Assembly (NCBI GenBank): GCA_028715625.1
Contig: JAQURL010000019.1
Span: 1 to 40,638, forward strand
Direction of reading: 5' to 3'
DNA length: 40,638 nucleotides
Origin: Candidatus Margulisiibacteriota bacterium
GTDB lineage: Bacteria; Margulisbacteria; Riflemargulisbacteria; GWF2-35-9
In this document: positions 1 through 40,467 of the stretch, in pieces
Layout of the letters: every line of letters begins with the position of its first letter
Position numbering within the stretch: position 1 is the first letter of the stretch
The notes under the pieces: generated by a model
What the model was told of the DNA's origin: nothing
What the model saw: only the letters and a program-made list of their open reading frames with translations
The model's database searches: none
Made by a program: the position numbers and the translations under genes

Positions 1-117
1 AATTAAATATTCAGGCTGAATTGAAACATCTAATATCCTACATTCCCTATAGGGATATTGCTTAAATCTAATGTTATAGGGCAATATAGGCAAGTTGGTA
101 TAGTGTGGGAAATTAAC

Positions 118-126
118 GCTCCACCA
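118..126 (+). other. Inverted copy of tRNA-Ala 3' end (possible attachment core)
   Basis: GCTCCACCA here equals the last nine bases of the mature tRNA-Ala gene that ends at 15208 on the minus strand. Similarity between the two island ends starts at this motif: the base before it already differs. This suggests that the tRNA tail is part of the mobile unit's end or attachment core. A conventional tRNA integration would leave a direct repeat, whereas this copy is inverted. Confidence 0.6.
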
Positions 127-179
127 TAATTCGAGGACACGCATAATAGGTTTTAGGGTATTGGGTTAGAGTAATAAAT

Positions 180-203
180 CGATATAGCCGTTAGGCTATA
201 TCG
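180..203 (-). terminator. Hairpin downstream of left recombinase
   Basis: Perfect 10-bp arms (CGATATAGCC and GGCTATATCG) with a 4-base loop lie 86 bases after the recombinase stop. On the transcribed strand the stem is followed by the T-rich ATTTATTA. An identical hairpin sits at 15131-15154. It could be an intrinsic terminator or a recombinase recognition structure. Confidence 0.5.
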
Positions 204-288
204 AACCCGCGAATGATGGTTTTTTCGTTAAAAATGCTGATATTTTCGATATATGTCCTTTCTGTTGCTTAATACCCCAATCATGTAT

Positions 289-1845
289 TTATATCCCTGC
301 CCTGAGGTTCCCGAAGGGAAAAATTTCATTGTCCGGCAACATTGTGAATTGAAATTCCAGAGTATCTTTGGAACACCTGATTTGTTCTATGATCTTGGAT
401 AGGGCTAGCCTGTGAGTATGAATGTTTTCAAACGGATAACCTGACCGATAGACGATAAACTGTTTTTTGACCTCAGCAATAGGCAATAATTTACTTTTGA
501 TTTGATTGCCGGTCAGCTGTTCTTTGGTTATTGCCGCTTTAAGTTGTTTTTCTTCGGTTTCCATTTCATTAATTTTGGTATTGATAAGTTCTCGTTCCTT
601 GCTCAGGAACTGGCTGGAAAGCAAGGTATCCAGATATTTGTCCTTCTTGATTTTCAACTGACTGAACAGGCTTTCCAGATGGCGCAAGGATTTATCGTGT
701 TCGGCGATCTGCGTCATGATCTGTTCATTGTGTTTGAGCAATTTGTTTTCTATATATCTGAAATTCTTTTCCTCTGATAGAGAAAGGATAATTTCCGTTA
801 CTCTGGCTTCCAGCCTGTTAAGGCTGAAATACGACTGGGGGCAAGTTTTGCCGTTATCCTTTGAGCCTGTACAACGGTAATAGAAAAACTTTTTCTTGTG
901 CCTGTTCACGGTGTGGCTGGGGGCTAGGGGGGAGCCACACCGTGAACAGAATACCTTTTTAGCTAGAATGGCGTTTGTAGTGTTCTTGGCTTTGGTGTAG
1001 GTCTTTGATTTAAAAATTTGCTGAACCTTTTCAAACGTAGTTGGTGTAATAATGGGTTGATGAATACCATTGTAGACATGCCCGCCCCAGGTAATTTTTC
1101 CGATATAGGCTTCCTGTTGAAGCATTTTCTGGATTTGTCGTTCATCCCAGCGTTTCCCGTTTCTGTATGGAAAGCCGTTTTCATTCAGATAGTGCATAAC
1201 TGCCACTGTTGAACGGGTTTCCAGAAACTTCTGAAAGATGGTTTCTACTATTTGTTTTTCTTTGGGGTACGGAACCAGTTCTTTTTCTACAATTGAATAG
1301 CCATATAATCTGCGTCCGCCGTTAAAGTGCCCCATGCTGGCCCTGTGCCCCATGACATCCGCTATACGTTCGGAAGTTTGTTCCCGTTCCAGTTGGGCAA
1401 AGACCAGAGCCACCCGTAGCATGGCTTTGCCCATAGCGGTTGTGGTATCAAAACTTTCCTTCAGGGAAATGAATTCAATTTCCTTTTCCTGTAGTAGCTT
1501 CATGAACTGCTCAAAGTCCAGCAAAGACCGGCTGAGCCGGTCCAGCTTCTTGACTACTACTGCGTTAATTTTCTTTTGCTCTACATCTTTAATCAGTTTC
1601 TGATATTCCGGTCGGTTGGTATTGCCGCCAGACTTACCACGTTCAATATAGATATTATGTATCTGATAATTGCGGTAATCGCAAAACTTCTTTAATTCAC
1701 TTTCCTGCTCTTCCAGCGAATCGCCTTCATTGGCCTGCCGTTCTGTGGAAACACGGATATATAATGATACTTTAAACCCCTCCGCCTGCGGCACCTCCCC
1801 TTGATAAGGGGAGGAAACCTGTTTATTGTTTTTACTTTTACTCAC
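289..1845 (-). CDS. Large serine recombinase (left copy)
   Basis: This 518-residue site-specific recombinase would cut and rejoin DNA through a serine-DNA intermediate. The resolvase domain spans about 24-165 with catalytic S33 in YIRVST. A 'Recombinase' domain follows at about 190-290. A zinc ribbon at about 300-345 has the CSRC, YYRC and KTC cysteines, and a coiled coil covers about 365-445. It starts with GTG overlapping the SLOG stop (GTGA), so the two genes are translationally coupled. The N-terminal peptide SSPYQGEVPQAEG is encoded by a palindromic repeat absent from the right copy, and the C-terminus (FPFGNLRAGI) also differs. Outside those patches it is about 97% identical to the gene at 13569-15053. 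It is transcribed toward the island's outer edge. Confidence 0.95.
   Translation of the reverse strand: MSKSKNNKQVSSPYQGEVPQAEGFKVSLYIRVSTERQANEGDSLEEQESELKKFCDYRNYQIHNIYIERGKSGGNTNRPEYQKLIKDVEQKKINAVVVKKLDRLSRSLLDFEQFMKLLQEKEIEFISLKESFDTTTAMGKAMLRVALVFAQLEREQTSERIADVMGHRASMGHFNGGRRLYGYSIVEKELVPYPKEKQIVETIFQKFLETRSTVAVMHYLNENGFPYRNGKRWDERQIQKMLQQEAYIGKITWGGHVYNGIHQPIITPTTFEKVQQIFKSKTYTKAKNTTNAILAKKVFCSRCGSPLAPSHTVNRHKKKFFYYRCTGSKDNGKTCPQSYFSLNRLEARVTEIILSLSEEKNFRYIENKLLKHNEQIMTQIAEHDKSLRHLESLFSQLKIKKDKYLDTLLSSQFLSKERELINTKINEMETEEKQLKAAITKEQLTGNQIKSKLLPIAEVKKQFIVYRSGYPFENIHTHRLALSKIIEQIRCSKDTLEFQFTMLPDNEIFPFGNLRAGI
902..949. repeat. 17-bp perfect palindrome inside recombinase zinc ribbon
   Basis: Arms CTGTTCACGGTGTGGCT (902-918) and its exact complement (933-949) flank a 14-base loop made almost only of G and C. 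The structure lies in the codons for the zinc-ribbon segment FCSRCGSPLAPSHTVNR. It is conserved without change in the right recombinase copy (14408-14455). Confidence 0.9.
1777..1814. repeat. In-frame palindromic repeat insertion in recombinase N-terminus
   Basis: About 38 bases present only in the left copy. They contain the palindrome CCTCCCCTT / AAGGGGAGG around GAT (1794-1814) and a GC-rich tail. The insertion keeps the reading frame and adds about 13 residues just before the catalytic domain. It resembles the Rickettsia palindromic element type of protein-tolerated repeat, by structure and not by sequence match. Confidence 0.75.
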
Positions 1846-2432
1846 TTTAAATACACCGCCTTATACGCATTTTCCCAACAGCCGCCGCACTTGAGCGGCT
1901 TCCACTTGATGTTTTTGAACTCCGGTAACGCAGTATCGATACAAAAGATAACTACGGGTAAATGCTCGGCTAAAGCCTTGCGGATAGTGAAAAGCGTGCC
2001 TCGACTTTCGCCGTAGAGAAAGGCAACTATGCCGGATACAGCTTCTATAAGCCGCAGATTGCGCTGTAGCAAACCTGTGCGCACAATGGCATATTCTTCC
2101 TTGCCCTGTAACCCGCCCCATATAATAGAACCGCCATACTCCTTGAACTGGCGAGTAAGGGCACGGACTTTGACGGGGAAACCTTCGTAAGTACTCCACG
2201 GGCTGTATAGCGTGCCTTTGTCGGCTTCGCCGACATGCACCAGATAGGCCAGACAATATTCGTCTGTGCCAACGGCTCCACCGCTGGCTATGTGGAACTT
2301 GCGTTTAAGCAGGTCTTCCACTACTGCGCCTACCTGCTCAGCGTTGCCAACAGGCAAGCTCCTTGAACCTATGACCCCCACTACGCCCTTTGGGCTTCGC
2401 GGGGCAAGCCCTATTTGCTTTTTTTCTTCCAT
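1842..2432 (-). CDS. SLOG/DprA-like Rossmann protein (left copy)
   Basis: This 196-residue protein has a Rossmann nucleotide-binding fold of the SLOG superfamily. The opening strand and loop GVIGSRSLP and the segment IASGGAVGTDEYCL match the DprA/LOG-type phosphate-binding pattern. It ends with a CGGCW motif. DprA proteins load RecA on single-stranded DNA and other SLOG proteins sense or process nucleotides; which applies here is not known. The strict pairing with a serine recombinase in both copies suggests a helper role in recombination. This copy has an 11-codon in-frame insert (LAPRSPKGVVG region) relative to the 185-residue right copy. Confidence 0.8.
   Translation of the reverse strand: MEEKKQIGLAPRSPKGVVGVIGSRSLPVGNAEQVGAVVEDLLKRKFHIASGGAVGTDEYCLAYLVHVGEADKGTLYSPWSTYEGFPVKVRALTRQFKEYGGSIIWGGLQGKEEYAIVRTGLLQRNLRLIEAVSGIVAFLYGESRGTLFTIRKALAEHLPVVIFCIDTALPEFKNIKWKPLKCGGCWENAYKAVYLK
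2376..2408. repeat. 33-bp in-frame repeat insertion in left SLOG gene
   Basis: These 33 bases are absent from the right copy and add exactly 11 codons near the N-terminus. They form an imperfect palindrome with GCCC and GGGC arms around AAA and flanking CCCC/GGGG blocks. The insertion sits just before the first beta strand of the Rossmann fold, where added residues could be tolerated. Confidence 0.75.
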
Positions 2433-2694
2433 AATGTGCCTCCTTTTGTCTCAGCTTTGGCTGAAACTGTTTCGATGGGGTACGAAAAAACCAGAAAAAA
2501 AGAAGGATGTCAAAGAATTATTTTGAAAAGTTGTTTTACGGGGACTAGACCACAGAATAGATTATATTAAATACATATAAAAATTTGATAACCCTACAAA
2601 ATGGTAAGCTTTAAATTTCTTAAATAAGCTTGCCATATAAAAATAATCAGCAAAACTATCAATAAAGATTAAAAAATATCAGTTAAACCTCAAC

Positions 2695-2723
2695 TTGACC
2701 AAATGCTAAAATTTACTCATTAT
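2695..2723 (+). promoter_or_regulatory. Candidate promoter of defence operon
   Basis: TTGACC (2695-2700), a 17-base spacer and CATTAT (2718-2723) form a sigma-70-like promoter in the AT-rich gap between the left repeat and the XRE gene. It is the best match to consensus I see in that gap. Confidence 0.4.
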
Positions 2724-2758
2724 ATAAAAGGTTTATTAAATTATAAATAATATTTAAC

Positions 2759-2774
2759 TAGTAAAGTTATACTA
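2759..2774. promoter_or_regulatory. Candidate XRE operator
   Basis: The inverted repeat TAGTA-N6-TACTA lies 31 bases upstream of the XRE start codon and downstream of the candidate promoter. This is a plausible autoregulatory site for the adjacent HTH protein. In this AT-rich DNA the match could be chance. Confidence 0.3.
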
Positions 2775-2805
2775 ATAAAAGTATGCAAACAAAAATTAAT
2801 CTTAT

Positions 2806-3009
2806 ATGAATATTGCTAAAAATATTAAAATATTAAGAAAAGAAAAAAAAATGTCGCAAGAAAAACTCTCGAGATTGGCGGATATTTCATTTCCATCATT
2901 AACTAAAATCGAATCTGGAACAACGGAAAATCCAACTGTTAAAACCTTGAAGAAAATAGCCGATGTTTTAGAAGTAACAGTAGATTATTTAATACAAGAG
3001 AATGCTTAA
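2806..3009 (+). CDS. XRE-family HTH regulator
   Basis: This 67-residue protein is almost entirely a Cro/C1-type helix-turn-helix: the region from MSQEKLSRLADIS to the IESGTTENPTVKTL recognition segment is typical. It ends in VTVDYLIQENA, a common end of this fold. No clear ribosome-binding site precedes the ATG. Its TAA is followed at once by the ATG of the DUF4007 gene, so it is the first gene of the operon. It probably controls expression of the modification genes, as small XRE proteins do in many restriction-modification and phosphorothioation loci. Confidence 0.88.
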   Translation: MNIAKNIKILRKEKKMSQEKLSRLADISFPSLTKIESGTTENPTVKTLKKIADVLEVTVDYLIQENA

Positions 3010-3870
3010 ATGACAAACAGTAAGTTATCATTTTCAGGTCATGAAACTTTTAGTTGTAGGCAACACTGGCTAAAAAAAGGCTATGATTTCTTGATAAACG
3101 GAGGAAAATTTTCTAATGAAGATGCCGTAGTCAAGTTAGGCGTTGGGAAAAACATGGTTTTAGCAATGAAATATTGGCTCCAAGCATTTTACGTGTTAGA
3201 TGATAAAGGTGAAATTTCTGAATATGCGAATTATTTTTTTGGCAAGAAAGGGAGAGATCCATATTTAGAAGATATTTTTACGATATGGTTACTTCATTAT
3301 TTAATAATTACTAATAATAGTGCTTCCCTTTATAATATTTTCTTTAAAGAATTTGTAAGTCAGAAAAATGAATTCACAAAATCTGATATTGTTAGTTTTA
3401 CCGATTTATATTGCTCGAAAATGGATTATGTCGTTAATAGTAATAGCTTGATTAGGGATGTAGATGTGTTTATCCAAAATTATGTAAACCCTGAAAATGA
3501 CATTAATAAATTAGATGACATATACAGCAACATCCTTGCCGATTTAAATTTAATTACAGTAGTTGAGAGTAGACATGGGAAGGAATCAATATATAGAGTC
3601 GTGAGAACGGAGCGTCGTGATATCCCTGACGAATTTATTCTGTTTGCAATTTGCGATAAGTTCAACAAAGTCTCAATAGAATTTAAAGAACTGTATGATT
3701 TTCTTGGTGATTTATTATTGATTACGCATGATGGCTTGTTAAATAAAATTAATTCATTGGCTGACAAATATTCGTTCGTTTCATTTGAGGAGCATGCTGG
3801 AATCCGGAATCTTCATCTTAAAAGTATAGTCAATAAGTTTAAGGCCTTAGATATTTATTATGACAAATAG
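3010..3870 (+). CDS. DUF4007 protein, SspB-like
   Basis: This 286-residue protein starts with the DUF4007 hallmarks FSGHETFSCRQHWLKKG (about 7-23) and LGVGKNMV (about 45-52). From memory of the literature, SspB of the SspABCD single-strand phosphorothioation system carries this domain and nicks DNA so that sulfur can be inserted. The gene is followed by an ATPase and a PP-loop sulfurtransferase in the order sspB-sspC-sspD, which supports that reading. It follows the XRE gene without a gap and overlaps the ATPase gene by 11 bases. I see no separate nuclease motif, so the nicking role is inferred from family and order. Confidence 0.85.
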   Translation: MTNSKLSFSGHETFSCRQHWLKKGYDFLINGGKFSNEDAVVKLGVGKNMVLAMKYWLQAFYVLDDKGEISEYANYFFGKKGRDPYLEDIFTIWLLHYLIITNNSASLYNIFFKEFVSQKNEFTKSDIVSFTDLYCSKMDYVVNSNSLIRDVDVFIQNYVNPENDINKLDDIYSNILADLNLITVVESRHGKESIYRVVRTERRDIPDEFILFAICDKFNKVSIEFKELYDFLGDLLLITHDGLLNKINSLADKYSFVSFEEHAGIRNLHLKSIVNKFKALDIYYDK

Positions 3871-6800
3871 ATTTTTACCGTCGATAAATATTTTAAGGGA
3901 TGAAAAGAGCGATATTCAGTATATTCCGACTCAAAATGCAGGCAGTATATACAACCAGATATGGAATAATTACAATTTCGGGGTACACTCTTTTACGATT
4001 ATAGGTTCATACGGCACAGGAAAATCGTCGTTCCTCTTGGCACTAGAGCAAAATCTAAATAGTTTCAAAAAATACTGGGATAAGCCTAACGGCAAATTAA
4101 TAGATAAGCAGTTTTCTTTTATTAAAATTGTGGGCAAATACGAATCAATAATCGGTTCGTTCTGTAACATTCTATCAATTGATGAAAAAAGCTCTTCGGA
4201 AGAAATTCTTAATAAAATAAGTCAATTATATGCTGACTATGAGAAAAAAAACGTTTGCTTAGTTATAATAATTGATGAATTTGGAAAGTTTCTGGAATAT
4301 GCAGCTGTAAATAACCCAGAAAAAGAACTATATTTTATCCAATTATTGGCAGAGTTTATAAACGATTCAAATAAAAACTCTATTTTAATTTTAACCTTAC
4401 ATCAAAATTTTTCTGCATATGCATGGAAATTAAAAAAACATCAAAAAAATGAATGGGAGAAAGTGAGAGGACGATTAAAGGAAATTCCATTTATTGAACC
4501 ATTAGAACAACTTCTTTGCTTGGCTGCCAAACATTTAAAAGGTTCAGACACATTAAAAATAAGTGATTCAGAATTTGAACATTTCAAAGAGAAAGTGAGT
4601 AAAGCTCGGGTTCTCCCTTTTAGAACGGATATTGATAATGAAATCCTAAAAAATCTTTTCCCATTAGACATTCTTTCTGCCGCAATACTTACTAAAGCCT
4701 TACAATTTTATGGGCAAAATGAAAGATCGTTGTTCTCTTTTCTGAAATCAGATGAACATTTCGGACTAAATGATTTTAATTCCCAGGATCGGGCCTATTT
4801 TAGTCTTGATAAAGTATATAATTATCTTTGGTACAACTTCCATACTTTACTAGCTACAAAAAATAATCCTCATTTTTCTATGTGGTTTTCAATTCAAGGT
4901 GCCTTGGAACGAGTCGAGAACAGCTTGCCAACTGTTTATTTGGGTTTGGGTACTAAACTAGTAAAAACAATTGGATTGTTAAACATATTTTCACCAAAAT
5001 CAGCATTAATAAATAGAGAATTCTTTCTCGATTATTTTAAATATATTTTTAAAACACCTGATGATGATATAAAAGAAGTGTTAATTCTTCTGGAAAACAA
5101 AAAAATTATTAGGTTTTTGAACTATAGAGAAAGCTATATACTTTTTGAGGGAACCGATATCGATATAGAACTGGAATTAGATAAAGCATCCTCGAAGATA
5201 ACGCCTACGATTGATTTGATCCCTTCCTTGAAACAATATTTTAATTTTCCAATATATACGGCAAAAGCCCATTTTATTGAAAAAGGTACGCCAAGATATT
5301 TTTATAATATTATTTCTCAATATCCAGTAACGATAATAGAGGACAGCAACTTTGATGGCATGATAAATTTCATTTTTCCCGAAGATCTCGATGAAAATAT
5401 CCTAATTAATGAATCCAAAAAAACAAACGCCCCAATTGTATTTGTTATTTATAAAAATATAAACGATATACAAGATATCCTTTTTGAAATTGATAAAATT
5501 AACTTTGTTAAAAGCAAAAATTCTGAAGATAGAGTTGCCGTCAGAGAGTTGGATGAAATTTTGAACAATCAAGTTTATGAATTAAATAGCAACTTATATG
5601 ACCAGCTATTTAACGAAAGAATTGTAATCTGGATTTTCAAGGGCAAGAAGGTTAATATAAAATCCAAAACTGAACTGAATAAATTTTTGTCTTCAATTTG
5701 CGATGAAACCTACAGCAAAACCCCTGTATTTAAGAATGAATTGATAAATCGACTTAAGCTAAGTTCTTCCATATCAACAGCTCGAAAGAAGTTCTGGAAA
5801 TCTCTTGTAAACAATTGGACGGTGGAGGATTTGAATTTTCCCAGGAAAGTCTTTCCTCCTGAAAAGACAATTTACTTGAGCTTATTAAAAGATACTGGAA
5901 TTCATAGGAAAATAACATCGGAGCGCCATTATGTTTTAGATGAACCCCAAGAAAAATCATTTCGAGAACTATGGGATGCATGTGAAAATTTTTTAGAAGG
6001 CACAAAAAACAACAAGAAGCCTTTGATAGAGCTAATCAACATCTTAAAAAATAGTCCATATGGTATTAAAGATGGTTTTTTAACATTCTGGATACCAATA
6101 TTCTTGTTTATTCGTAGAGAAGAATATGCGCTTTTCGAGAGCTCTCAGTTTATTCCCGAATTAACCGAATCATATTTCGAGTTAATAGTGAAAAGACCAC
6201 AGTCTTTTTTTGTTAAAAAATTTAATATTGAAGGGATTAGAGATGAACTCCTAATCAAATATCGCAATATTCTTTCCGAGAAACATACAAAGAGTAAATT
6301 AATAAAATCAAACTTTATTACCGCCATAAAACCATTTTTAGCCTTATATAAGAGTTTGCCTGAATATACCCTTAAAAGCCATCAAATATCGGATGAGGCA
6401 AAAAATCTCCTGCAGGCAATAGGAAATTCAACGGACCCAGAAGATTCATTTTTTGAGTTATTTCCCCATGCATTCGGATACAACATCAATGAGTTGAACG
6501 AATCTAAAGAAAAGCTTGAAGCATACATTTTGAAGCTTCGAAATGTTGTCCTGGAACTCCGAACTAATTATGATAATCTTGTTGAACGAATGGAGTCTAT
6601 TTTCATTAAGCAATTAGGATTAGATAATGAGGAATATGACGACTATGTCTTAAAAATAAAAAATGAGTATATCCAATTATCGGACAAAGTTATTCCCCAA
6701 TACTTAAGACCGCTTTATCAACGGCTAACAAATATTTCAATGGGGAAAAACGATTGGTTTAATTCGCTTGCAGCATCAATTTATGGTAAACCACTTAATA

Positions 6801-7102
6801 TTATTAACGATAGCGAGGAAGATCTTGTACAAAAAAAATTAATTGAACGATTAAAGGAACTGGAAAATATTAGAAAAGTTGAAACTTTATCGACGAATTT
6901 AGAACAGAACGTTTTGAAAATAGATTTAACATCCAGTGGGAGTGGAATGACTTCAAATATTATAAGTCTTCCATGGGAATCTGATGCTGAGAGCCAGAAA
7001 CTACAGGATAGGATATCCAAAATATTAACTAATGATTCCAAAAAGAACGCCATAGTTCTAATCAGTATATTAAAAAAGGAATTACAGCATGAAAAAGATT
7101 AG
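3860..7102 (+). CDS. Large P-loop ATPase of modification operon, SspC position
   Basis: This 1080-residue protein has a Walker A motif GSYGTGKSS at 49-57, Walker B VCLVIIIDE at 132-140 and a following LILTLHQNF strand. This is the layout of AAA/STAND-like NTPases common in defence islands. The rest is helical with no recognised domain; 935-975 may form a coiled coil. It overlaps both neighbours (11 and 14 bases), so all three proteins are probably made together. In Ssp systems the P-loop ATPase SspC acts with SspB and SspD in modification. It may fill that role here, replacing DndD of classical dnd loci. No DndD-type SMC hinge is visible. Confidence 0.82.
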   Translation: MTNRFLPSINILRDEKSDIQYIPTQNAGSIYNQIWNNYNFGVHSFTIIGSYGTGKSSFLLALEQNLNSFKKYWDKPNGKLIDKQFSFIKIVGKYESIIGSFCNILSIDEKSSSEEILNKISQLYADYEKKNVCLVIIIDEFGKFLEYAAVNNPEKELYFIQLLAEFINDSNKNSILILTLHQNFSAYAWKLKKHQKNEWEKVRGRLKEIPFIEPLEQLLCLAAKHLKGSDTLKISDSEFEHFKEKVSKARVLPFRTDIDNEILKNLFPLDILSAAILTKALQFYGQNERSLFSFLKSDEHFGLNDFNSQDRAYFSLDKVYNYLWYNFHTLLATKNNPHFSMWFSIQGALERVENSLPTVYLGLGTKLVKTIGLLNIFSPKSALINREFFLDYFKYIFKTPDDDIKEVLILLENKKIIRFLNYRESYILFEGTDIDIELELDKASSKITPTIDLIPSLKQYFNFPIYTAKAHFIEKGTPRYFYNIISQYPVTIIEDSNFDGMINFIFPEDLDENILINESKKTNAPIVFVIYKNINDIQDILFEIDKINFVKSKNSEDRVAVRELDEILNNQVYELNSNLYDQLFNERIVIWIFKGKKVNIKSKTELNKFLSSICDETYSKTPVFKNELINRLKLSSSISTARKKFWKSLVNNWTVEDLNFPRKVFPPEKTIYLSLLKDTGIHRKITSERHYVLDEPQEKSFRELWDACENFLEGTKNNKKPLIELINILKNSPYGIKDGFLTFWIPIFLFIRREEYALFESSQFIPELTESYFELIVKRPQSFFVKKFNIEGIRDELLIKYRNILSEKHTKSKLIKSNFITAIKPFLALYKSLPEYTLKSHQISDEAKNLLQAIGNSTDPEDSFFELFPHAFGYNINELNESKEKLEAYILKLRNVVLELRTNYDNLVERMESIFIKQLGLDNEEYDDYVLKIKNEYIQLSDKVIPQYLRPLYQRLTNISMGKNDWFNSLAASIYGKPLNIINDSEEDLVQKKLIERLKELENIRKVETLSTNLEQNVLKIDLTSSGSGMTSNIISLPWESDAESQKLQDRISKILTNDSKKNAIVLISILKKELQHEKD

Positions 7103-8192
7103 ACATGTTTTAGGCATATCTGGCGGCAAAGACAGTACTGCTTTGGCTATTTTCTTGAAACAAAAATTTCCGGAGTTAGATATTGAGTATTATTTCTGTG
7201 ATACAGGTGAAGAACTAAACGAGACTTATCAGATAATTGAAAACTTAGAGGTGTATTTAGGTAAAAAGATTATTCGATTGAAGGCTGCTGCCGATACTCA
7301 CCATTCTCCATTTGAGTACTATCTTAAAATGTATAATGGGTTTCTGCCGTCAGCAAATGCAAGGTGGTGCACCAAAAACTTAAAATTGATTCCTTTTGAA
7401 CAATTCGTTGCTGATGACCCTGTTGTTTCTTACGTTGGAATAAGGGAAGATGAAAATCGTGAAGCATACATTTCCAAGAAAAAAAATATTCAATCTATTT
7501 TCCCGTTTAGAAAAAACATATGGAGTGTTGATGTAATTCGGCATGTTCTTTCTGAAAGCCAAGAAAATTACATGCTTGAGCTCTATAGAGATCATTTAAA
7601 TATGAATCAATTTATAAAAGTGGAGAACATAATAAAAAGGCCCATGTCCTTTGACTTCAATTTTGAAAAAAAACTTTTAACTTTATTGGAATGTGGTCTT
7701 ATTGAATTTAATAACGTTGTTTTTGCATTACTCAAAAACACACCTTATCCATTAGGGCGGCTGGAATCCTTCCCATTATTGAGTAAAACAGAAACGTTTG
7801 GCATCCAAGATGTATTTAATTCGCTAAAGGATAGCGGCATAGGGTTGCCAGAATATTATAAAAAAATCCCAATATCCTCATGTAGCTTAGAGGGTGTTTA
7901 TAATAGAAGTCGTTCGGGCTGTTATTTTTGCTTTTTTCAACAAAAAATAGAATGGGTTTGGCTTTATGAACAACACCCAAGTCTTTTTCAGAAAGCTTTG
8001 TCTTTTGAGAAAGAAGGGTATTCCTGGATGGATAACGAGCGTCTAGAAGAATTGATTAAGCCGGAGAGAATTAGACAAATAAAGAATGATTATTTGAAAA
8101 AGAATAATAATCTGAAATATTCTTCACCGTTTCTATTGGACATCTTACAAGAAGATGATGAAGTTAAAGCATGCGCTGCTTGCGCCATTTAA
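7089..8192 (+). CDS. PP-loop sulfurtransferase, DndC/SspD-like
   Basis: This 367-residue enzyme of the PAPS-reductase/ATP-pyrophosphatase family has the PP-loop SGGKDS at 11-16, WCTKNLK at 93-99 and GIREDENR at 118-125. Cysteines C94, C265, C278 and C281 (the last two in SGCYFCFF) are candidate 4Fe-4S ligands, as in DndC. The tail ends with CAACAI. In phosphorothioation such enzymes activate the DNA backbone with ATP and transfer sulfur from a cysteine desulfurase. No desulfurase gene is in the window, so a host IscS-type enzyme would have to supply sulfur. The gene overlaps the ATPase gene by 14 bases, and its stop codon interlocks with that of the convergent DGQHR gene. Confidence 0.9.
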   Translation: MKKIRHVLGISGGKDSTALAIFLKQKFPELDIEYYFCDTGEELNETYQIIENLEVYLGKKIIRLKAAADTHHSPFEYYLKMYNGFLPSANARWCTKNLKLIPFEQFVADDPVVSYVGIREDENREAYISKKKNIQSIFPFRKNIWSVDVIRHVLSESQENYMLELYRDHLNMNQFIKVENIIKRPMSFDFNFEKKLLTLLECGLIEFNNVVFALLKNTPYPLGRLESFPLLSKTETFGIQDVFNSLKDSGIGLPEYYKKIPISSCSLEGVYNRSRSGCYFCFFQQKIEWVWLYEQHPSLFQKALSFEKEGYSWMDNERLEELIKPERIRQIKNDYLKKNNNLKYSSPFLLDILQEDDEVKACAACAI

Positions 8193-9424
8193 GCTTGATC
8201 TAGGCCATCTATGGCCTCAGTGGCCGTAGTTTCAGTACCGATACGCTTCATATAAAGCGAGTTCATTTTAGCAATCTCATTCGGATTTAGGATGGATTTA
8301 TCAAAAAAATATATCAGCATATATTTTATCAAACTGTGTTCTGGTCTTCTCATTGTTTTGCTTGCAGGATCCCAGAGAATATTTTTCCAAGGCAATTCAT
8401 TTAAGTCTAATGGAATGTGATTAAAGCCCCGTATTATCTCATTAAAAGAGATATCACGTATCTGTTTTATCGAATTTATTGCATCAACAAAAGGCATTAG
8501 TCCTATAGGTCTAAAAAAAATTATCCCTCCTGTTCTTTTATTTCTAAAATCATCCCGAACATTTTCGACATCCATTTGTTGGTATCGATTAACAATATCA
8601 AGATTATTACTGAATGCATTCCAGAACTCTTGGCAATAATTCTTAAAGCCGTCTATAACTGCGTCATCTTTACGGTATCTAAGATAATCTTTTAGCTTTT
8701 TGTTTCTTAACCTGGTATGCGACTGGAGAATATATATTGTGCATTTATATAATGCTTCTAGTGTCGTGAGACTCTGGTAATTATTATTAGGAATATTTGT
8801 TCCCTTTGAGATAGCAGTTCTTTTCCCCATAAATAAACTATAATTTTCTACTAAGTACCTTGTTGTTATGGCTGCGATATCATCTTCGTCTAAAGAGATT
8901 ATCTCAGAAAGTTTTACAGGTTTAGCATATCGATTTAGGGTGCTAAATAATCGCCTAGATCTCTCCATACCTTGAGAATTATTGCTATGCCCTATAAAGA
9001 TTACAGATATTTTTTCTTCTCGTAAGTCCTGATTTTCATGAACAGCTTGTTTTATTGCCTCAACGCGGTGTTGTCCGTCAACTGGGAATATTTTCTCTTC
9101 ACCATTAAATTCAAGAAATCCCATCCCAAAATACGTAATATCGCTTTCGCTCGGAAAGGTATACTCAACCTCAATCCATTCAGGTTCGCCATCATATATT
9201 GCAAGAACTAATGAATTAAAAAATCTTTCATGTTGGTTAAGAAGGTAATCTTTTATACTGTTCACATTTTCAGTAATACTTCTCTGAATCATATCAGAAA
9301 GGGCTTCTGTCTTATGCAGTTCGTCATCTACTTTTTTAACCATATTGCTGACTTGCAAAAAACTCATGGTGGATACATAGTATAGCCAATCACCCATTTT
9401 CCCTCTTATAGCTGGTATTCGCAT
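8189..9424 (-). CDS. DGQHR-domain protein, DndB-like
   Basis: This 411-residue protein has the signature PVDGQHRVEAI with DGQHR at 116-120, followed by the expected RLFSTLNRYAKPV segment. DGQHR proteins are ParB/Srx-like and include DndB, which represses dnd operons and binds DNA, and DpdB of the deazaguanine system. The start ATG has a good ribosome-binding site (AAGGAGAG). It is the last gene of the minus-strand operon, 20 bases after the GIY-YIG gene. Being co-transcribed with a nuclease and a GHKL ATPase, and not with the sulfurtransferase, suggests a role in recognition or control of restriction; regulation of modification is also possible. Confidence 0.88.
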   Translation of the reverse strand: MRIPAIRGKMGDWLYYVSTMSFLQVSNMVKKVDDELHKTEALSDMIQRSITENVNSIKDYLLNQHERFFNSLVLAIYDGEPEWIEVEYTFPSESDITYFGMGFLEFNGEEKIFPVDGQHRVEAIKQAVHENQDLREEKISVIFIGHSNNSQGMERSRRLFSTLNRYAKPVKLSEIISLDEDDIAAITTRYLVENYSLFMGKRTAISKGTNIPNNNYQSLTTLEALYKCTIYILQSHTRLRNKKLKDYLRYRKDDAVIDGFKNYCQEFWNAFSNNLDIVNRYQQMDVENVRDDFRNKRTGGIIFFRPIGLMPFVDAINSIKQIRDISFNEIIRGFNHIPLDLNELPWKNILWDPASKTMRRPEHSLIKYMLIYFFDKSILNPNEIAKMNSLYMKRIGTETTATEAIDGLDQA

Positions 9425-9444
9425 ATTTCTCTCCTTTTTATATA

Positions 9445-9969
9445 TTAACTAAATGCTCTCACTGCTGCGCTAATCCTTTTATCAGGGATTTCATTGTTAA
9501 AAGGGGGTAAAATTGAGTTAATGAGAACTTTTTCAAGTGATTCGGTTGCATCATTATTACTAATACAAATGTATTTAATATAGAGAAATTTGGCCCATTG
9601 ATTAAATATCCGCGTTATATAGGGTCTTTCTTCTGTGGCGTTTTGATGTTTCTGGAAATATGATTTGCATCTTTTCCTAAGATTCGCATTACTTGTTATA
9701 CGGGATCTCCCAATGTACAGTAAGAAACTATGAACAAATGGTATTTTTGGGTTTTTAACGATAAAGAAATATATTCCTCCTGAGTTGCTAGGCAGATTAT
9801 TTATATCTGCATGAAATGCATCAGCGGTATCATTAAGGTATTTTATTTCCCTACAATCTGATTCCGTAATGCCAAAATGTTGTAGATCTAACATTTCCCA
9901 AAGTGGCGGATAGATTCTGAACGAAAGTTTGTGAAAATCAATTTCTTTCGCAAGTTCAAATGCCTTCAT
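9445..9969 (-). CDS. GIY-YIG nuclease
   Basis: This 174-residue protein carries a GIY-YIG endonuclease domain: GIY at 65-67, YIG at 85-87, LRKR at 97-100 (catalytic arginine), the metal-binding glutamate in SLEKVLIN (E146) and the closing PPFNN (about 155-159). The first 60 residues are an extra N-terminal segment without a recognised match. The start follows the GHKL stop by two bases and has AGGGG as a ribosome-binding site. With a GHKL ATPase and a DGQHR protein beside it, it is the likely DNA-cutting effector of the locus, possibly sensing the presence or absence of phosphorothioate. All key residues appear intact. Confidence 0.82.
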   Translation of the reverse strand: MKAFELAKEIDFHKLSFRIYPPLWEMLDLQHFGITESDCREIKYLNDTADAFHADINNLPSNSGGIYFFIVKNPKIPFVHSFLLYIGRSRITSNANLRKRCKSYFQKHQNATEERPYITRIFNQWAKFLYIKYICISNNDATESLEKVLINSILPPFNNEIPDKRISAAVRAFS

Positions 9970-9971
9970 AA

Positions 9972-12413
9972 TTAGTCCCCTAAAGTTTGTAACAAATCAT
10001 CCATTCCAAAATTTAACAAAAATTCTGAATAGTAGCTTTTGAATAAGTCACTGAGGTAGTCTGCAAGATCAACGTCCTTCGGTGTTTCTTCTCCTTCTAG
10101 ATGTTGGATCGCATATTTCCGCTGCTTTGAAATTGTATATAGGAACAATACGTGGAAATAAACAGCGGATAAATATTTATTATCAGCCAACATAATTTGA
10201 TCCTGAGAAAGTGCCTTTTTATTGGACTTGTAAGTCATGAGCACATGACTATCCATGTTAATATAGATTTTTACTAATTGTTCTCCTTCAACAAGTGGAT
10301 AAACAACAGTATATTCATCCATAGATATACCTGCTTCCTCACAATTTTCCCAACCTGGATGATTTTCTTTTTTTTCTTTATAAACTGATATAACCTCTGG
10401 TAGGCCTAAGTCCTCAAGTTCATTATCATCTTTTATAGGGGCTTTTTCCTTTGGCTCCTCGGGGGCACATATTTTTACCCAGAATATTTCCTCAAAGCTT
10501 TGAGCCTTATCACCAAACTCAACTTTCACTTGTATTGCATCCCCAACAGAAACATTTTCTGTCGGATTCATGGATATTTTTATTGTTCCATCGTCCGGAC
10601 TTGCCTTCCGAATATTCAAGACTTCGCTAATTTCTTTTGGAAGACCTGGCTTGAGCCCACCTCTAACGTCATTAGGCTTGAGATTAAGCAATGCTATTTT
10701 TAGATCACCAGGATCGTCAATACGATCGAAATAGGAGTTTTCAACATCAGTCGAGAAGGCAATGATTCGTTCTCCACCAATTGGAATCTTAGCAACTTCT
10801 GTATTTCCGTCATTTTTTTTCGATAGCTTGAAATATGATGGATATCTCTTAGGTTGAAAAGAATCCTTCGAGTCTTTTTGTGGCTTTTTTTCTTTCTTTT
10901 TTGTATCATGCGTGTCTTTTTTTTGATTCAGTTTAAATGTTTGATTTAGAAGTTTATAGAGTTCACTCTTCAATGGTAGATTTCTTGATAAGGCCTTGAG
11001 TGTTTCATTAGTATCTGAACTCTCAATTGAAATTGATGCTCTTCTTCTTTTATCTATTTCTTCTAATTTGCTTTTTTTTAATATGGTAGCTAGATGATTT
11101 CTTAGGTCCCTAGACTCTAAACCACCTTTTAATCGATCCCTGGAAGCCATGAAAAGTTCATTCCGATAATCGGGATTCATGTTTGTGCAATCAATATGTA
11201 TAAGCAAATAGTCCTTCAGTAGTGGCATTTTTAGAGACCTTGTAATAAATTCTGAACCATAATGCCCATGTGTCTGACCGTTTAGCGAAAACATAACTGA
11301 CATGTTGTTCTTAAAGAACTCTCTCTGAATAGTTTCTTTGCTTTCTTTCACAGATTTCTGGTCAATTTTTGTCATGAAAACATAACAGGTTATCTTCACC
11401 CTTCCCATTTCTCCAAACGAATCATCTATTGAAAAATAATCTTCAATATATTTGCTTTCCTCCGATTCTAAACGCCTCTTTAGGCCGTATAGATCTCTTT
11501 GTAGATTTATATCTTTAGGATATCTTTCGGGCTTGTCGATAGTTAGTATTGGCAAAGCAGGTTCAAAAAGAAATTCATTAATACTTTGATTTAAGTCCCT
11601 TGAGATTACAGACCTAGAACCTTCAGGCAGGTCATATGAGTATAGTTTAAGAACGGTCCCTGTTTTGAATGAGCGATTATGTAAGCCTAAATCAAGGGCC
11701 GCAATTGTAAACGCAGGGATATTCCCATCTATTAATAAGTACTCATACCAAGTATCTTTTCTTGTTTTTTGTTCTACTTCATTCCGTTTGTGTTTTCTTA
11801 TTAGCGTAAACCCAAATTTGCCTGAGTTGTCATATTTTTTTGAGCCAATTAACTGATATCTTTTTCTCCCGCAAAAAGCAATTGCCCCTGTTCCCCCCAT
11901 ATTATATTTACCTTGAACAAAATGGATTTCACTTTTATTCCCCGCTAGTAAAGATAAAAATGTTTCTTCAAATTTTTCTGGATGTTGGCCTTCACCATTG
12001 TCATAAACAATTAATGAAGTTTCCATTCTTGGGCCATCTGCAATGATTTGAATCTCTTCAGCTTGCTGCTTTCTAAATGAAGATAGGTCCCAGTTTTTAA
12101 AGTCATTGAAAAACTTTGAGATGGCTTCTTCCATGTTTTTGGGGGCATGAGTTGATTTGGGATCAATTTTTGACTCATAGCATTTCTTCATCAATATTGC
12201 ATCAATTGAGTTTGTTATTTTCTCGATAAGCGCGGCAATAGGAGAGGATTGTTGGTTTTCAATTAAACCAATGTTATGCTCTACATTCCCTAAGGGCTTC
12301 CAATTTCTCGGATTATCAAGTTGAGGGTATTTTTTTAGTGTTATATCTAGATCATTTTCCGTTTTTGAAAAAAACAGATCCTTGAATAGTTTCTCAAATT
12401 CTTTTTCATTCAT
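9972..12413 (-). CDS. GHKL (HSP90/MORC-like) ATPase, candidate effector motor
   Basis: This 813-residue protein has an N-terminal GHKL ATPase fold: N-box EKITNSIDA with E64 and N68, G1 motif DNGEG at 138-142 and G2 motif GKYNMGGTG at 168-176. A lysine-rich linker at about 500-535 (KKDTHDTKKKEKKPQKDSK) separates it from a C-terminal region with no recognised domain. GHKL ATPases clamp around DNA (MutL, MORC, gyrase B) and recur in defence loci. It lies 19 bases after the small upstream gene and two bases before the GIY-YIG gene, with AGGATGA as ribosome-binding site. I infer an ATP-dependent clamp that loads or licenses the nuclease. Confidence 0.85.
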   Translation of the reverse strand: MNEKEFEKLFKDLFFSKTENDLDITLKKYPQLDNPRNWKPLGNVEHNIGLIENQQSSPIAALIEKITNSIDAILMKKCYESKIDPKSTHAPKNMEEAISKFFNDFKNWDLSSFRKQQAEEIQIIADGPRMETSLIVYDNGEGQHPEKFEETFLSLLAGNKSEIHFVQGKYNMGGTGAIAFCGRKRYQLIGSKKYDNSGKFGFTLIRKHKRNEVEQKTRKDTWYEYLLIDGNIPAFTIAALDLGLHNRSFKTGTVLKLYSYDLPEGSRSVISRDLNQSINEFLFEPALPILTIDKPERYPKDINLQRDLYGLKRRLESEESKYIEDYFSIDDSFGEMGRVKITCYVFMTKIDQKSVKESKETIQREFFKNNMSVMFSLNGQTHGHYGSEFITRSLKMPLLKDYLLIHIDCTNMNPDYRNELFMASRDRLKGGLESRDLRNHLATILKKSKLEEIDKRRRASISIESSDTNETLKALSRNLPLKSELYKLLNQTFKLNQKKDTHDTKKKEKKPQKDSKDSFQPKRYPSYFKLSKKNDGNTEVAKIPIGGERIIAFSTDVENSYFDRIDDPGDLKIALLNLKPNDVRGGLKPGLPKEISEVLNIRKASPDDGTIKISMNPTENVSVGDAIQVKVEFGDKAQSFEEIFWVKICAPEEPKEKAPIKDDNELEDLGLPEVISVYKEKKENHPGWENCEEAGISMDEYTVVYPLVEGEQLVKIYINMDSHVLMTYKSNKKALSQDQIMLADNKYLSAVYFHVLFLYTISKQRKYAIQHLEGEETPKDVDLADYLSDLFKSYYSEFLLNFGMDDLLQTLGD

Positions 12414-12432
12414 TTAGATCATCCTAACAAGA

Positions 12433-12648
12433 TTAAAACTTAAATTCCATTTTTTTTATTCGTTGCTTAAACAATAATTCATTTTGCTTTATTTTATTTC
12501 TTATGATCCTAAACATCTTATCTACATCTTTTTCATTGTATTCGTAATTATTTTTATTTGAACAGTTGCCTAATAGATCTAGTAAAGCAATAATTTTTTG
12601 TGTTCTTTTTGCTGCAACTTTTTCGAAACGTTCTCGTTTGGTATTCAT
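12433..12648 (-). CDS. Small basic protein heading the effector operon
   Basis: This 71-residue protein begins MNTKRERFEKVAAKRTQKI and ends in a lysine-rich tail. The centre, LLGNCSNKNNYEYNEKDVDKMF, resembles short proteins that I recall next to ATPases in defence islands; no function is known to me. I prefer the start at 12648 over the ATG 12 bases upstream because GGAG stands seven bases before it. It is the first gene behind a strong promoter. A role as regulator, antitoxin or subunit of the GHKL ATPase is possible but unproven. Confidence 0.7.
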   Translation of the reverse strand: MNTKRERFEKVAAKRTQKIIALLDLLGNCSNKNNYEYNEKDVDKMFRIIRNKIKQNELLFKQRIKKMEFKF

Positions 12649-12682
12649 TATTGGCTCCATAAAAATAAAAATGTATTGTCTA

Positions 12683-12711
12683 TTATTACTATATAAATTT
12701 TAATATGTCAA
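12683..12711 (-). promoter_or_regulatory. Promoter of effector operon
   Basis: On the minus strand, TTGACA (12711-12706), a 17-base spacer and TAATAA (12688-12683) form a near-consensus sigma-70 promoter. Transcription would start near 12676, about 28 bases before the start codon of the small protein. The surrounding 180 bases are very AT-rich. Confidence 0.6.
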
Positions 12712-12968
12712 TTATATATACTATATTTAGCAAATATATTATATATAATAAAAAATTATTATCTTTTATAATACTGTATTAAAATAGCTAAAATGATCTT
12801 TGCGAGACTGATTTTCTCAGCTTTTAAGGAATAAAGGTATATCTATTCTGTGGTCGAGTCCCCGTAAAACAACTTTTCAAAATAATTCTTTGACATCCTT
12901 CTTTTTTTCTGGTGTGCCTTATCCATCGAAACAGTTTCAGCCAAAGCTGAGACAAGAGGAGGCATATT

Positions 12969-13526
12969 ATGCAAGAAAAGAAAGTTATAGGAGTTATAGG
13001 TTCACGGTCTTTACCCATGAGCAAAGCAGAGCTGGTCGGTGCGGTGGTAGATGATTTACTCAAACGCAGGTTTCATATAGCCAGCGGCGGAGCTGTTGGC
13101 ACTGATGAATATTGTTTGTCCTATTTGGTACATGTCGGCGAAGCCGACAAAGGCACGCTTTACAGTCCCTGGAGCACATACGAGGGGTTCCCTGTCAAAG
13201 TCCGAGCACTTACCCGCCAGTTCAAGGAGTATGGCGGTTCTGTTGTCTGGGGCGGTTTACAGGGCAAGGAAGAATATGCCATTGTCCGCACAGGTTTACT
13301 ACAGCGCAATTTACGGCTTATAGAAGCTGTATCCGGCATAGTTGCCTTTCTCTATGGCGAAAGCAGAGGCACACTGTTCACTATCCGCAAGGCTTTAGCC
13401 GAGCATTTACCCGTAGTCATTTTTTGTATCAATACTCCGTTACCGGAGTTCAAAAACATCAAGTGGAAGCCGCTCAAATGCGGCGGCTGTTGGGAAGGCG
13501 CTTTCAAAGCAGTCTACTTGAAGTAG
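12969..13526 (+). CDS. SLOG/DprA-like Rossmann protein (right copy)
   Basis: This 185-residue version of the SLOG protein lacks the insert seen in the left copy. The N-terminus reads MQEKKVIGVIGSRSLPM and the phosphate-binding region IASGGAVGTDEYCL is intact. The start has a strong ribosome-binding site (GAGGAGG, seven bases upstream). A short hairpin, TCAGC/GCTGA, lies just before it in the leader. The protein differs from the left copy mainly near the N-terminus and at the end. Both copies keep full reading frames, which argues that each is under selection. Confidence 0.82.
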   Translation: MQEKKVIGVIGSRSLPMSKAELVGAVVDDLLKRRFHIASGGAVGTDEYCLSYLVHVGEADKGTLYSPWSTYEGFPVKVRALTRQFKEYGGSVVWGGLQGKEEYAIVRTGLLQRNLRLIEAVSGIVAFLYGESRGTLFTIRKALAEHLPVVIFCINTPLPEFKNIKWKPLKCGGCWEGAFKAVYLK

Positions 13527-13552
13527 TCATACTTCGTCAGGCTCAGTATGAC
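13526..13552. repeat. 27-bp dispersed palindromic repeat
   Basis: Sequence with GTCATACT and AGTATGAC ends, inserted at the junction of the right SLOG and recombinase genes. Its exact reverse complement occurs at 40441-40467, 27 kb away, so it is a dispersed element. The left module has no copy at this junction. Confidence 0.9.
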
Positions 13553-13568
13553 AGGAGGAATAATTAAC

Positions 13569-15053
13569 ATGGAAGAGAAATTCAAAGTATCATTATATAT
13601 CCGTGTTTCCACAGAACGGCAGGCTAATGAAGGCGATTCTTTGGAAGAGCAGGAAAGTGAGCTGAAAAAGTTCTGTGATTACCGCAATTATCAGATACAT
13701 AATATCTATATTGAACGTGGTAAGTCCGGCGGCAATACTAACCGCCCGGAATACCAGAAGTTAATCAAAGACGTAGAGCAAAAGAAAATTAAGGCGGTAG
13801 TAGTCAAGAAGCTGGACCGGCTCAGCCGGTCGTTACTGGACTTTGAGCAGTTCATGAAACTACTACAGGAAAAAGAAATTGAATTCATTTCCCTGAAAGA
13901 AAGTTTTGATACCACAACCGCAATGGGCAAAGCCATGCTCCGGGTGGCCCTGGTCTTTGCCCAGCTGGAACGGGAACAAACTTCCGAACGTATAGCGGAT
14001 GTCATGGGGCACAGGGCCAGCATGGGGCACTTTAACGGCGGACGCAGATTATATGGTTATTCAATTGTAGAAAAAGAACTTGTGCCGTACCCCAAAGAAA
14101 AACAGATCGTAGAAACCATCTTCCAGAAATTTTTGGAAACCCGTTCCACAGTGGCAGTCATGCACTATCTGAATGAAAACGGCTTTCCATACAGAAACGG
14201 GAAACGCTGGGATGAACGACAAATCCAGAAAATGCTACAGCAGGAAGCCTATATCGGGAAAATTACCTGGGGCGGGCACGTCTACAATGGTATTCATCAA
14301 CCTATTATTACCCCAACCACGTTTGAAAAGGTTCAGCAAATTTTTAAAGCAAAAACCTACACCAAAACCAAGAATACTACAAACGCCATTCTCGCTAAAA
14401 AGGTATTCTGTTCACGGTGTGGCTCCCCCCTAGCCCCCAGCCACACCGTGAACAGGCACAAGAAAAAGTTTTTCTATTACCGTTGCACAGGTTCAAAGGA
14501 TAAAGGCAAAACTTGCCCCCAGTCGTATTTCAGCCTTGCCCGGCTGGAAGCCAGAGTAACGGAAATTATCCTTTCCCTGTCTGAGGAAAAGCATTTCAGG
14601 TATATAGAAAATAAATTGCTCAAACATAATGAACAGATCATGACGCAGATCGCCGAACACGATAAATCCCTGCGCCATATGGAAAGCCTGTTCAGTCAGT
14701 TGAAGATCAAGAAGGATAAATATCTGGATACCTTGCTTTCCAGCCAGTTCCTGAGCAAGGAACGAGAACTTATCAATACCAAAATTAACGAAATGGAAAC
14801 CGAGGAAAAACAACTCAAAGCGGCAATAACCAAAGAACAGCTGACTGACAATCAAATCAAAAGCAAATTGCTTCCCATTGCTGAGGTCAAAAAACAGTTT
14901 ATCGTCTATCGGTCAGGTTATCCGTTTGAAAATATTTATGCTCACCGGCTGGCTCTGGCCAAGATCATAGAACAAATCAGGTGTTCCAAAGATACTCTGG
15001 AATTTCAATTCACAATGTTGCCGGACAATGAAATTTTTGCCCTGAATCAATGA
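13569..15053 (+). CDS. Large serine recombinase (right copy)
   Basis: This 494-residue recombinase has the same domain order as the left copy: resolvase domain with YIRVSTERQ near the N-terminus, Recombinase domain, zinc ribbon (CSRC, YYRC and a third cysteine) and a long coiled coil. I choose the ATG at 13569 because AGGAGG stands ten bases upstream; the in-frame ATG at 13548 lies inside the 27-bp repeat. It ends in IFALNQ, unlike the left copy. About a dozen substitutions separate the two proteins. It is transcribed outward, toward tRNA-Ala, and probably acts on the island ends. Confidence 0.95.
   Translation: MEEKFKVSLYIRVSTERQANEGDSLEEQESELKKFCDYRNYQIHNIYIERGKSGGNTNRPEYQKLIKDVEQKKIKAVVVKKLDRLSRSLLDFEQFMKLLQEKEIEFISLKESFDTTTAMGKAMLRVALVFAQLEREQTSERIADVMGHRASMGHFNGGRRLYGYSIVEKELVPYPKEKQIVETIFQKFLETRSTVAVMHYLNENGFPYRNGKRWDERQIQKMLQQEAYIGKITWGGHVYNGIHQPIITPTTFEKVQQIFKAKTYTKTKNTTNAILAKKVFCSRCGSPLAPSHTVNRHKKKFFYYRCTGSKDKGKTCPQSYFSLARLEARVTEIILSLSEEKHFRYIENKLLKHNEQIMTQIAEHDKSLRHMESLFSQLKIKKDKYLDTLLSSQFLSKERELINTKINEMETEEKQLKAAITKEQLTDNQIKSKLLPIAEVKKQFIVYRSGYPFENIYAHRLALAKIIEQIRCSKDTLEFQFTMLPDNEIFALNQ
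14408..14455. repeat. 17-bp perfect palindrome in right recombinase
   Basis: Exact counterpart of 902-949: 17-bp arms at 14408-14424 and 14439-14455 with the same 14-base GC loop, inside the zinc-ribbon codons. Conservation in both copies is noted because other synonymous positions have drifted. Confidence 0.9.
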
Positions 15054-15130
15054 TTGGGGTATTAAGCAACGGAAAGGACATATATCGAAAATATCAGCAT
15101 TTTTAGCGGAAAATTTATCATTCGCGGGTT

Positions 15131-15154
15131 CGATATAGCCTAACGGCTATATCG
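15131..15154 (+). terminator. Hairpin downstream of right recombinase
   Basis: Same 10-bp stem as at 180-203 (arms CGATATAGCC and GGCTATATCG, loop TAAC), followed by ATTTATTA. Possible intrinsic terminator for the SLOG-recombinase operon, or part of an attachment site. Confidence 0.5.
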
Positions 15155-15207
15155 ATTTATTACTCTAACCCAGCACCCTAAAACCTATTATGCGTGTCCT
15201 CGAATTA

Positions 15208-15283
15208 TGGTGGAGCTGAGGGGAGTCGAACCCCTGACCCTTTGCATGCCATGCAAATGCGCTACCAACTGCGCTACAGCCCC
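15208..15283 (-). tRNA. tRNA-Ala (GGC anticodon)
   Basis: A 76-base gene including encoded CCA. The acceptor stem GGGGCTG/CAGCTCC contains the G3-U70 pair that identifies alanine tRNAs. The D-loop has AGTTGGTA. The anticodon stem TTTGC/GCAAA encloses ATGGCAT with anticodon GGC. The T-arm is AGGGG-TTCGACT-CCCCT. Its last nine bases are shared with both ends of the inverted repeats, so it borders the island and is probably the insertion locus. Confidence 0.97.
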
Positions 15284-15519
15284 GATTAACACAACTAGTT
15301 ACTGTTTCCAAGGGGACTTTCCCGCTGTCGCTACGCTTCCTGCTTCGCTCCATCGGGCCCCACTCACTCACTTCCGTAGACATCCTGTCTACTCTTCCTC
15401 CCGCTGGTCGGCGTTCGTTCGGTTACGCTTCGTCCTACGGACTCGCTCACCCCTTCGGCTCTTTATAGAAAATAATTATAACAGACAGGCAGTATTCGTC
15501 AAAGATGGGAATTAATAAA
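15284..15519. other. GC-richer non-coding leader upstream of tRNA-Ala
   Basis: No credible gene is seen. The stretch 15305-15465 is GC-richer than its surroundings and contains recurring CGCTACGCTTC / CGGTTACGCTTCG and CTTCGCTC-like words, typical of dispersed repeat debris. Open frames here have no ribosome-binding site or protein-like composition. Confidence 0.5.
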
Positions 15520-40440: not shown

Positions 40441-40467
40441 GTCATACTGAGCCTGACGAAGTATGAC
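40441..40467. repeat. 27-bp dispersed palindromic repeat (second copy)
   Basis: Exact reverse complement of 13526-13552. It directly follows the heptamer array. Its presence both here and inside the island's right arm shows that the element is a genome-level repeat, not part of the island. Confidence 0.9.

Follow-up and report, generated by a model that had tools for sequence, protein, structure and literature searches.

Dispersed palindromes in and beside two sister SLOG-recombinase modules of a Margulisbacteria genome, with DUF559 nucleases as candidate movers of one palindrome type

A known feature of Rickettsia palindromic elements (RPEs) is their location within genes. Many bacterial genomes are full of palindromic repeats, and several described classes provide a frame for the repeats reported here: RPE-4/6 are counted as intragenic REPs, and intragenic REPs, including N-terminal ones, have already been described well beyond Rickettsia (PMC3733652). 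In a REPtron the mobilising gene is bracketed by the repeats themselves, MITEs span 70-300 bp, and for some classes, such as the CGTC REPs, no mobilising enzyme is known (PMC3733652). VsrA of Caulobacter, a Vsr-like nuclease, has been treated as an endonuclease with a predicted role in mismatch repair and a link to cytosine methylation (PMC12907096).

The window, the stretch of DNA analysed here, is an entire contig (C19) of 40,638 bases from a metagenome-derived Margulisbacteria draft genome of 2.63 Mb in 127 contigs (G000). It carries two modules in inverted orientation, at 289-2432 on the minus strand and 12969-15053 on the plus strand, each pairing a SLOG/DprA-like gene with a large serine recombinase downstream of it; as inverted repeats they are 94% and 85% complementary across the genes. 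On the left, the SLOG gene (1842-2432, minus; 196 aa) has its stop overlapped by the GTG start of the recombinase (289-1845, minus; 518 aa, with Resolvase, Recombinase and Zn ribbon domains), and on the right, the SLOG gene (12969-13526, plus) precedes a recombinase (13569-15053, plus) that starts with MEEKF and has AGGAGG ahead of its start. Between the modules lies an Ssp/Dnd-type island with SspB, SspC, SspD and DndB-like genes, and a tRNA-Ala gene (15208-15283) adjoins its right end; Rfam gave no match over 1-15300 besides this tRNA, and a scan of IMG/VR with the SLOG protein returned no relatives. Near both outer ends of the island (179-204 and 15130-15155) is a 26-bp palindrome, TCGATATAGCC-N4-GGCTATATCGA, a possible candidate for the recombinase site. 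Inverted SLOG-recombinase module pairs flank differing cargo in three genomes, with tRNA genes often adjoining (118-15216 in the window, about 3000-13200 in L095 and about 4100-15700 in L096): Ssp/Dnd genes here, ankyrin, DUF4238 and integrase genes in G021, and Schlafen, TOTE primase-helicase and PLD-helicase genes in G032, so that such pairs are possibly a carrier of defence islands. Furthermore, the coding sequence of the recombinase Zn ribbon holds a hairpin with perfect 17-bp arms (902-949 and 14408-14455; z -7.7), which is kept as a palindrome in L073, where paired changes alter the protein from CSRC to CLWC, and is absent from the remaining relatives read.

The two SLOG genes differ by a clean insert on the left, as the original prediction had claimed. 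Insert B (2376-2408, minus) is a 33-bp in-frame imperfect GC hairpin encoding LAPRSPKGVVG, which stands between MEEKKQIG and VIGSRS where the right protein reads MQEKKVIGVIGSRS. We take it as a gain on the left, because no relative read carries B. The further claim that the sister copies offer a clean before-and-after comparison is limited to this insert, because the N-terminal junction of the recombinase was wholly remodelled. At up to three mismatches, B itself was the sole match in its own genome, and its core had no further copy in five genomes of the family; with no other copy found, B cannot be called a mobile repeat and is better described as a single-copy hairpin that belongs to no family. 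We give about an even chance to a local, non-mobile origin by template switching or hairpin expansion, with which the absence of copies and the imperfect hairpin are consistent, whereas the resemblance of this GC hairpin to the other elements argues the other way, and the copy search, which covered up to three mismatches, would have passed over more divergent family members.

At the N-terminus of the left recombinase, where a 38-base in-frame insertion had been predicted, the picture is another one: a 44-bp palindrome, element A (1776-1819, minus; GGTTTCCTCCCCTTATCAAGGGGAGGTGCCGCAGGCGGAGGGGT, encoding ..VSSPYQGEVPQAEG..), sits in an N-terminal extension that begins at the overlapping GTG, and the junction with the SLOG gene differs throughout (68 nt on the left vs 54 nt on the right between conserved cores). 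We regard this as a remodelled start, not a simple insertion. Judging from the relatives, the A-less start is probably ancestral, because the right MEEKF resembles MEDKF of the outgroup L073. Element A has nine distinct copies in its own genome at up to three mismatches, where a reversed-pattern control had 0; the copies measure ~43-70 bp and share an aligned consensus ending in ACCCCTC.. / GGTTTCC... The A region folds as RNA at -22.9 kcal/mol (z -2.4; 0/200 shuffles equally good), and the edges of A and B show no clear target-site duplication. Frame preservation at A was dropped as a sign of selection, since inspection showed A to be free of stops in each of its three forward frames.

The left module is not alone in carrying A here, and the idea that A at the recombinase site was unique to it was dropped. 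A-type elements occupy the identical recombinase codon boundary, between GGAGGGG and TTY, in the relative G003 (L053, L055 and the pseudogene L114), and A is absent from the sisters in the tree, the right module and L054; the N-termini of these two agree with those of further relatives lacking A (MEEKF/MEDKF, MTDLF). The SLOG N-termini of L048 and L053 hold TTCG-N5-CTCA palindromes, and those of L049-L052 hold other GC-rich stretches. SLOG and recombinase N-termini thus appear to be permissive places, repeatedly hit by different palindromes in different genera, and tolerance would be expected there because these ends lie ahead of each domain's first strand. Concerning how A came to this place, its inner edge and its short spacer disagree. 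The inner edge follows the genome, which favours separate insertions: GTTT in 9/9 copies of the window's genome, including that of the left module, and AAAAG/AAAAAAG in most copies of G002 and G003, including the recombinase ones. The short spacer, on the other hand, is nearly the same in the left A and the recombinase A of G003 (TGCCGCAGGCGGAGGGG vs TGCCGAAGGCGGAGGGG) and differs in the other copies of the window's genome, which favours a shared origin of the recombinase A. An exchange of module copies, in which N-terminal alleles including A were moved by gene conversion or horizontal transfer and A was inserted here once, would account for the spacers but not for the inner edges that differ by genome, and we hold it to be possible, if on the doubtful side.

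Two further palindromes had been correctly anticipated, as a differing patch at the C-terminus of the recombinase and as a 27-bp palindrome between the right genes. The former corresponds to insert C (about 285-317, minus), a left-only stretch that holds the palindrome GCCCTGAGGTTCCCGAAGGGAA / GCCCTGAGGTTCCCGAAGGG, while the right C-terminus resembles that of L055; mere drift was dropped as a reading of this patch, as it contains a member of a palindrome family. The latter is element D (13526-13552, plus; GTCATACTTCGTCAGGCTCAGTATGAC), which lies between the SLOG stop and the recombinase start and has a second exact copy in the window (40441-40467, minus). At up to three mismatches, D occurs in 34 places of its own genome and C in 10, nine of which differ by 3/22 bases, and the reversed-pattern control was 0 for both; RNA folding of the D and C regions was no better than that of shuffles. 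D and C share a superfamily with a TTCG-N5-CTCA loop, different from A. Elsewhere in the genome (G000:C16, 24778-25038), seven D-type palindromes stand in tandem with a 39-bp period.

The original reading of all these sequences as mobile repeats, to be given up in favour of local expansion if they occurred nowhere else in the genome, therefore divides: A, C and D are dispersed (9, about 10 and 34 places), and B occurs once at up to three mismatches. Proteins appear to tolerate the palindromes, as had been proposed, because the host genes stay open, and a further mid-gene, in-frame copy of D lies in L044, a conserved ThiF/TcdA-type gene (Pfam ThiF; best solved relative 9hmp), where the D-containing stretch VILSLTKRDIFALRQALGDSEN maps to a place at which 9hmp is shorter; a GAAAAT/GAGAAT pair around this D is a possible target-site duplication. 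The proposed likeness to Rickettsia holds in that in-frame copies exist, but the label overstates gene targeting, because open-frame checks found a real gene in frame for 1/9 copies of A (the left recombinase; the rest are extragenic or in frames judged spurious) and for 1/30 checked copies of D (L044; other open frames across a copy appear spurious or are located upstream of a gene).

A-type copies of G002 cluster at a DUF559 gene, and DUF559 flanks read in five family genomes had palindromes on both sides in most, among them pairs of the same family (A-type, for instance, at G002:C68 L138, L130 and L132). Defining a strict hairpin as a perfect GC-rich stem of at least 8 bp within 200 bp of a DUF559 gene, we found hairpins on both sides of 17/40 Margulisbacteria DUF559 loci, which are best matches and not a random sample, taken from relatives that are mostly metagenome drafts; the same held for 0/790 control placements in the same loci and for 4/55 control ORFs, a set in which some frames are spurious and some neighbours have a hairpin in common. 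The strict both-sided criterion leaves out more than half of the DUF559 loci, and one-sided hairpins are present at 28/55 control ORFs. Hairpin density reaches 4.0-4.7 per kb within 150 bp of DUF559, vs about 0.2-0.7 per kb further out. Furthermore, the upstream and downstream flanks of one and the same gene match each other (mean 17.5 vs 9.8, sd 0.5, when permuted; 0/20,000 permutations as high). A first flank similarity score had placed 14/40 loci above the 99th control percentile, and the hairpin and permutation tests were added because its control pool was itself selected for palindromes; flank criteria and both tests were chosen after the first flanks had been seen.

Similar palindromes accompany DUF559 loci in a plasmid collection (n=14; Cyanobacteria, Alpha-/Gammaproteobacteria and Deinococcus), with a strict hairpin on at least one side in 13/14 and on both sides in 5/14, and with a flank match of 23.2 vs 11.5 permuted (0/20,000). 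Within the window's own genome, one of the five DUF559 matches (L141) adjoins an A-like palindrome, on one side, and the other intact ones are accompanied by a second palindrome type. G002:C68 holds a DUF559 unit that the orthologous locus G003:C83 lacks, and A palindromes mark the junction; the DUF559 copy at G002:C68 carries a stop, and a deletion between direct repeats could also produce this difference. The conserved motif is DFY..E(I/V/L)DG..H, and a solved relative is 3hrl. On the Pseudanabaena plasmid pPg_02, one and the same ORF includes a DUF559 stretch with its palindromes and a methyltransferase-type motif, LIDPACGSGHF, and at L189, L190, L193 and L202 of cyanobacterial plasmids DUF559 is located within or next to genes resembling DNA methyltransferases (DUF1156, BREX PglX). 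A literature search for DUF559 with palindromic repeats, which left most subscription journals outside its scope, found no paper linking the two, and a search by repeat sequence returned no papers.

On these sequence comparisons, we propose with a probability of roughly 0.5 that A, C and D are dispersed REP-like, putatively mobile palindromes, and that the A-type is most likely moved with the help of DUF559. This Vsr-like nuclease would be a good candidate mover, because like repeats bracket DUF559 genes so regularly across bacteria; the model concerns the A-type, and D and C belong to the other palindrome superfamily. The palindromes would insert mostly between genes and now and then be tolerated in frame, in loops or at the ends of genes. 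On this model the complete element would be a DUF559 gene with matching palindromes on either side, and single palindromes like A would be its non-autonomous copies, in the same relation as between REPs and RAYT genes; DUF559 would presumably nick the hairpin or its target before repair makes the copy. More tentatively, and with somewhat less than even confidence, DUF559 nucleases might be the hallmark of palindromic mobile elements that are widespread and independent of RAYT, a class to which dispersed hairpins, including those within proteins, would belong as non-autonomous copies.

Association does not amount to mobilisation, and the palindromes might be no more than landing sites for DUF559. 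If the palindromes spread by other means and DUF559 genes integrated at them, bracketing would follow too, and the position of DUF559 in or beside methyltransferase-like genes of cyanobacterial plasmids is what a homing nuclease might show; we consider this unlikely, as the two flanks of one gene match specifically, and landing in a single palindrome would need its splitting or duplication. Rather less probable still is that we face ordinary REPs moved by a tyrosine transposase, although size, GC-richness and mostly extragenic position with occasional intragenic copies are as in REPs (PMC3733652): the RAYT-type transposase PF01797 had no match in the window's own 97%-complete genome, which weakens this explanation even if a RAYT gene may have been lost or may fall in the roughly 3% of the MAG that is missing, and it had none in G001, G003 and G004 and one weak match in G002. 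Regulatory hairpins or terminators, not mobile at all, would suit hairpins placed at the ends of genes and ahead of start codons, but they hardly suit the copies within coding frames (the left recombinase, L053/L055 and TcdA) or the hairpins upstream as well as downstream of DUF559 with flanks that match per locus, and this we regard as quite improbable.

The DUF559 reading, if true, would identify an enzyme that mobilises palindromic repeats for which none has been known, and the recurrent pairing in several phyla makes it a concrete and testable candidate. Apart from that, the recombinase and SLOG cases suggest that proteins can gain N- and C-terminal segments from mobile DNA with the reading frame kept.

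Compared with the known systems, the palindromes resemble RPEs in lying in frame in unrelated protein genes (the recombinases of the left module and of L053/L055, and ThiF/TcdA L044) but differ in being mostly extragenic (a real gene in 1/9 A and 1/30 checked D), so that the Rickettsia comparison fits as an analogy only. They are closer to REPs, as A, C and D are small, GC-rich, dispersed and mostly extragenic palindromes with some intragenic or N-terminal copies, although the A consensus ends without a GTAG or CGTC tag. Like MITEs, they would be palindromic, non-coding and presumably mobilised in trans, but A with its ~43-70 bp falls below 70-300 bp, and its edges show no clear target-site duplication. 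The arrangement of a bracketed gene recalls the REPtron, except that the gene is DUF559, and the RAYT family PF01797 was not found in the window's genome. Finally, Vsr-like endonucleases such as Caulobacter VsrA belong to the same domain family as the DUF559 proteins considered here, but the work on VsrA concerns mismatch repair and cytosine methylation (PMC12907096), whereas here the nuclease genes stand out by the palindromes that bracket them.
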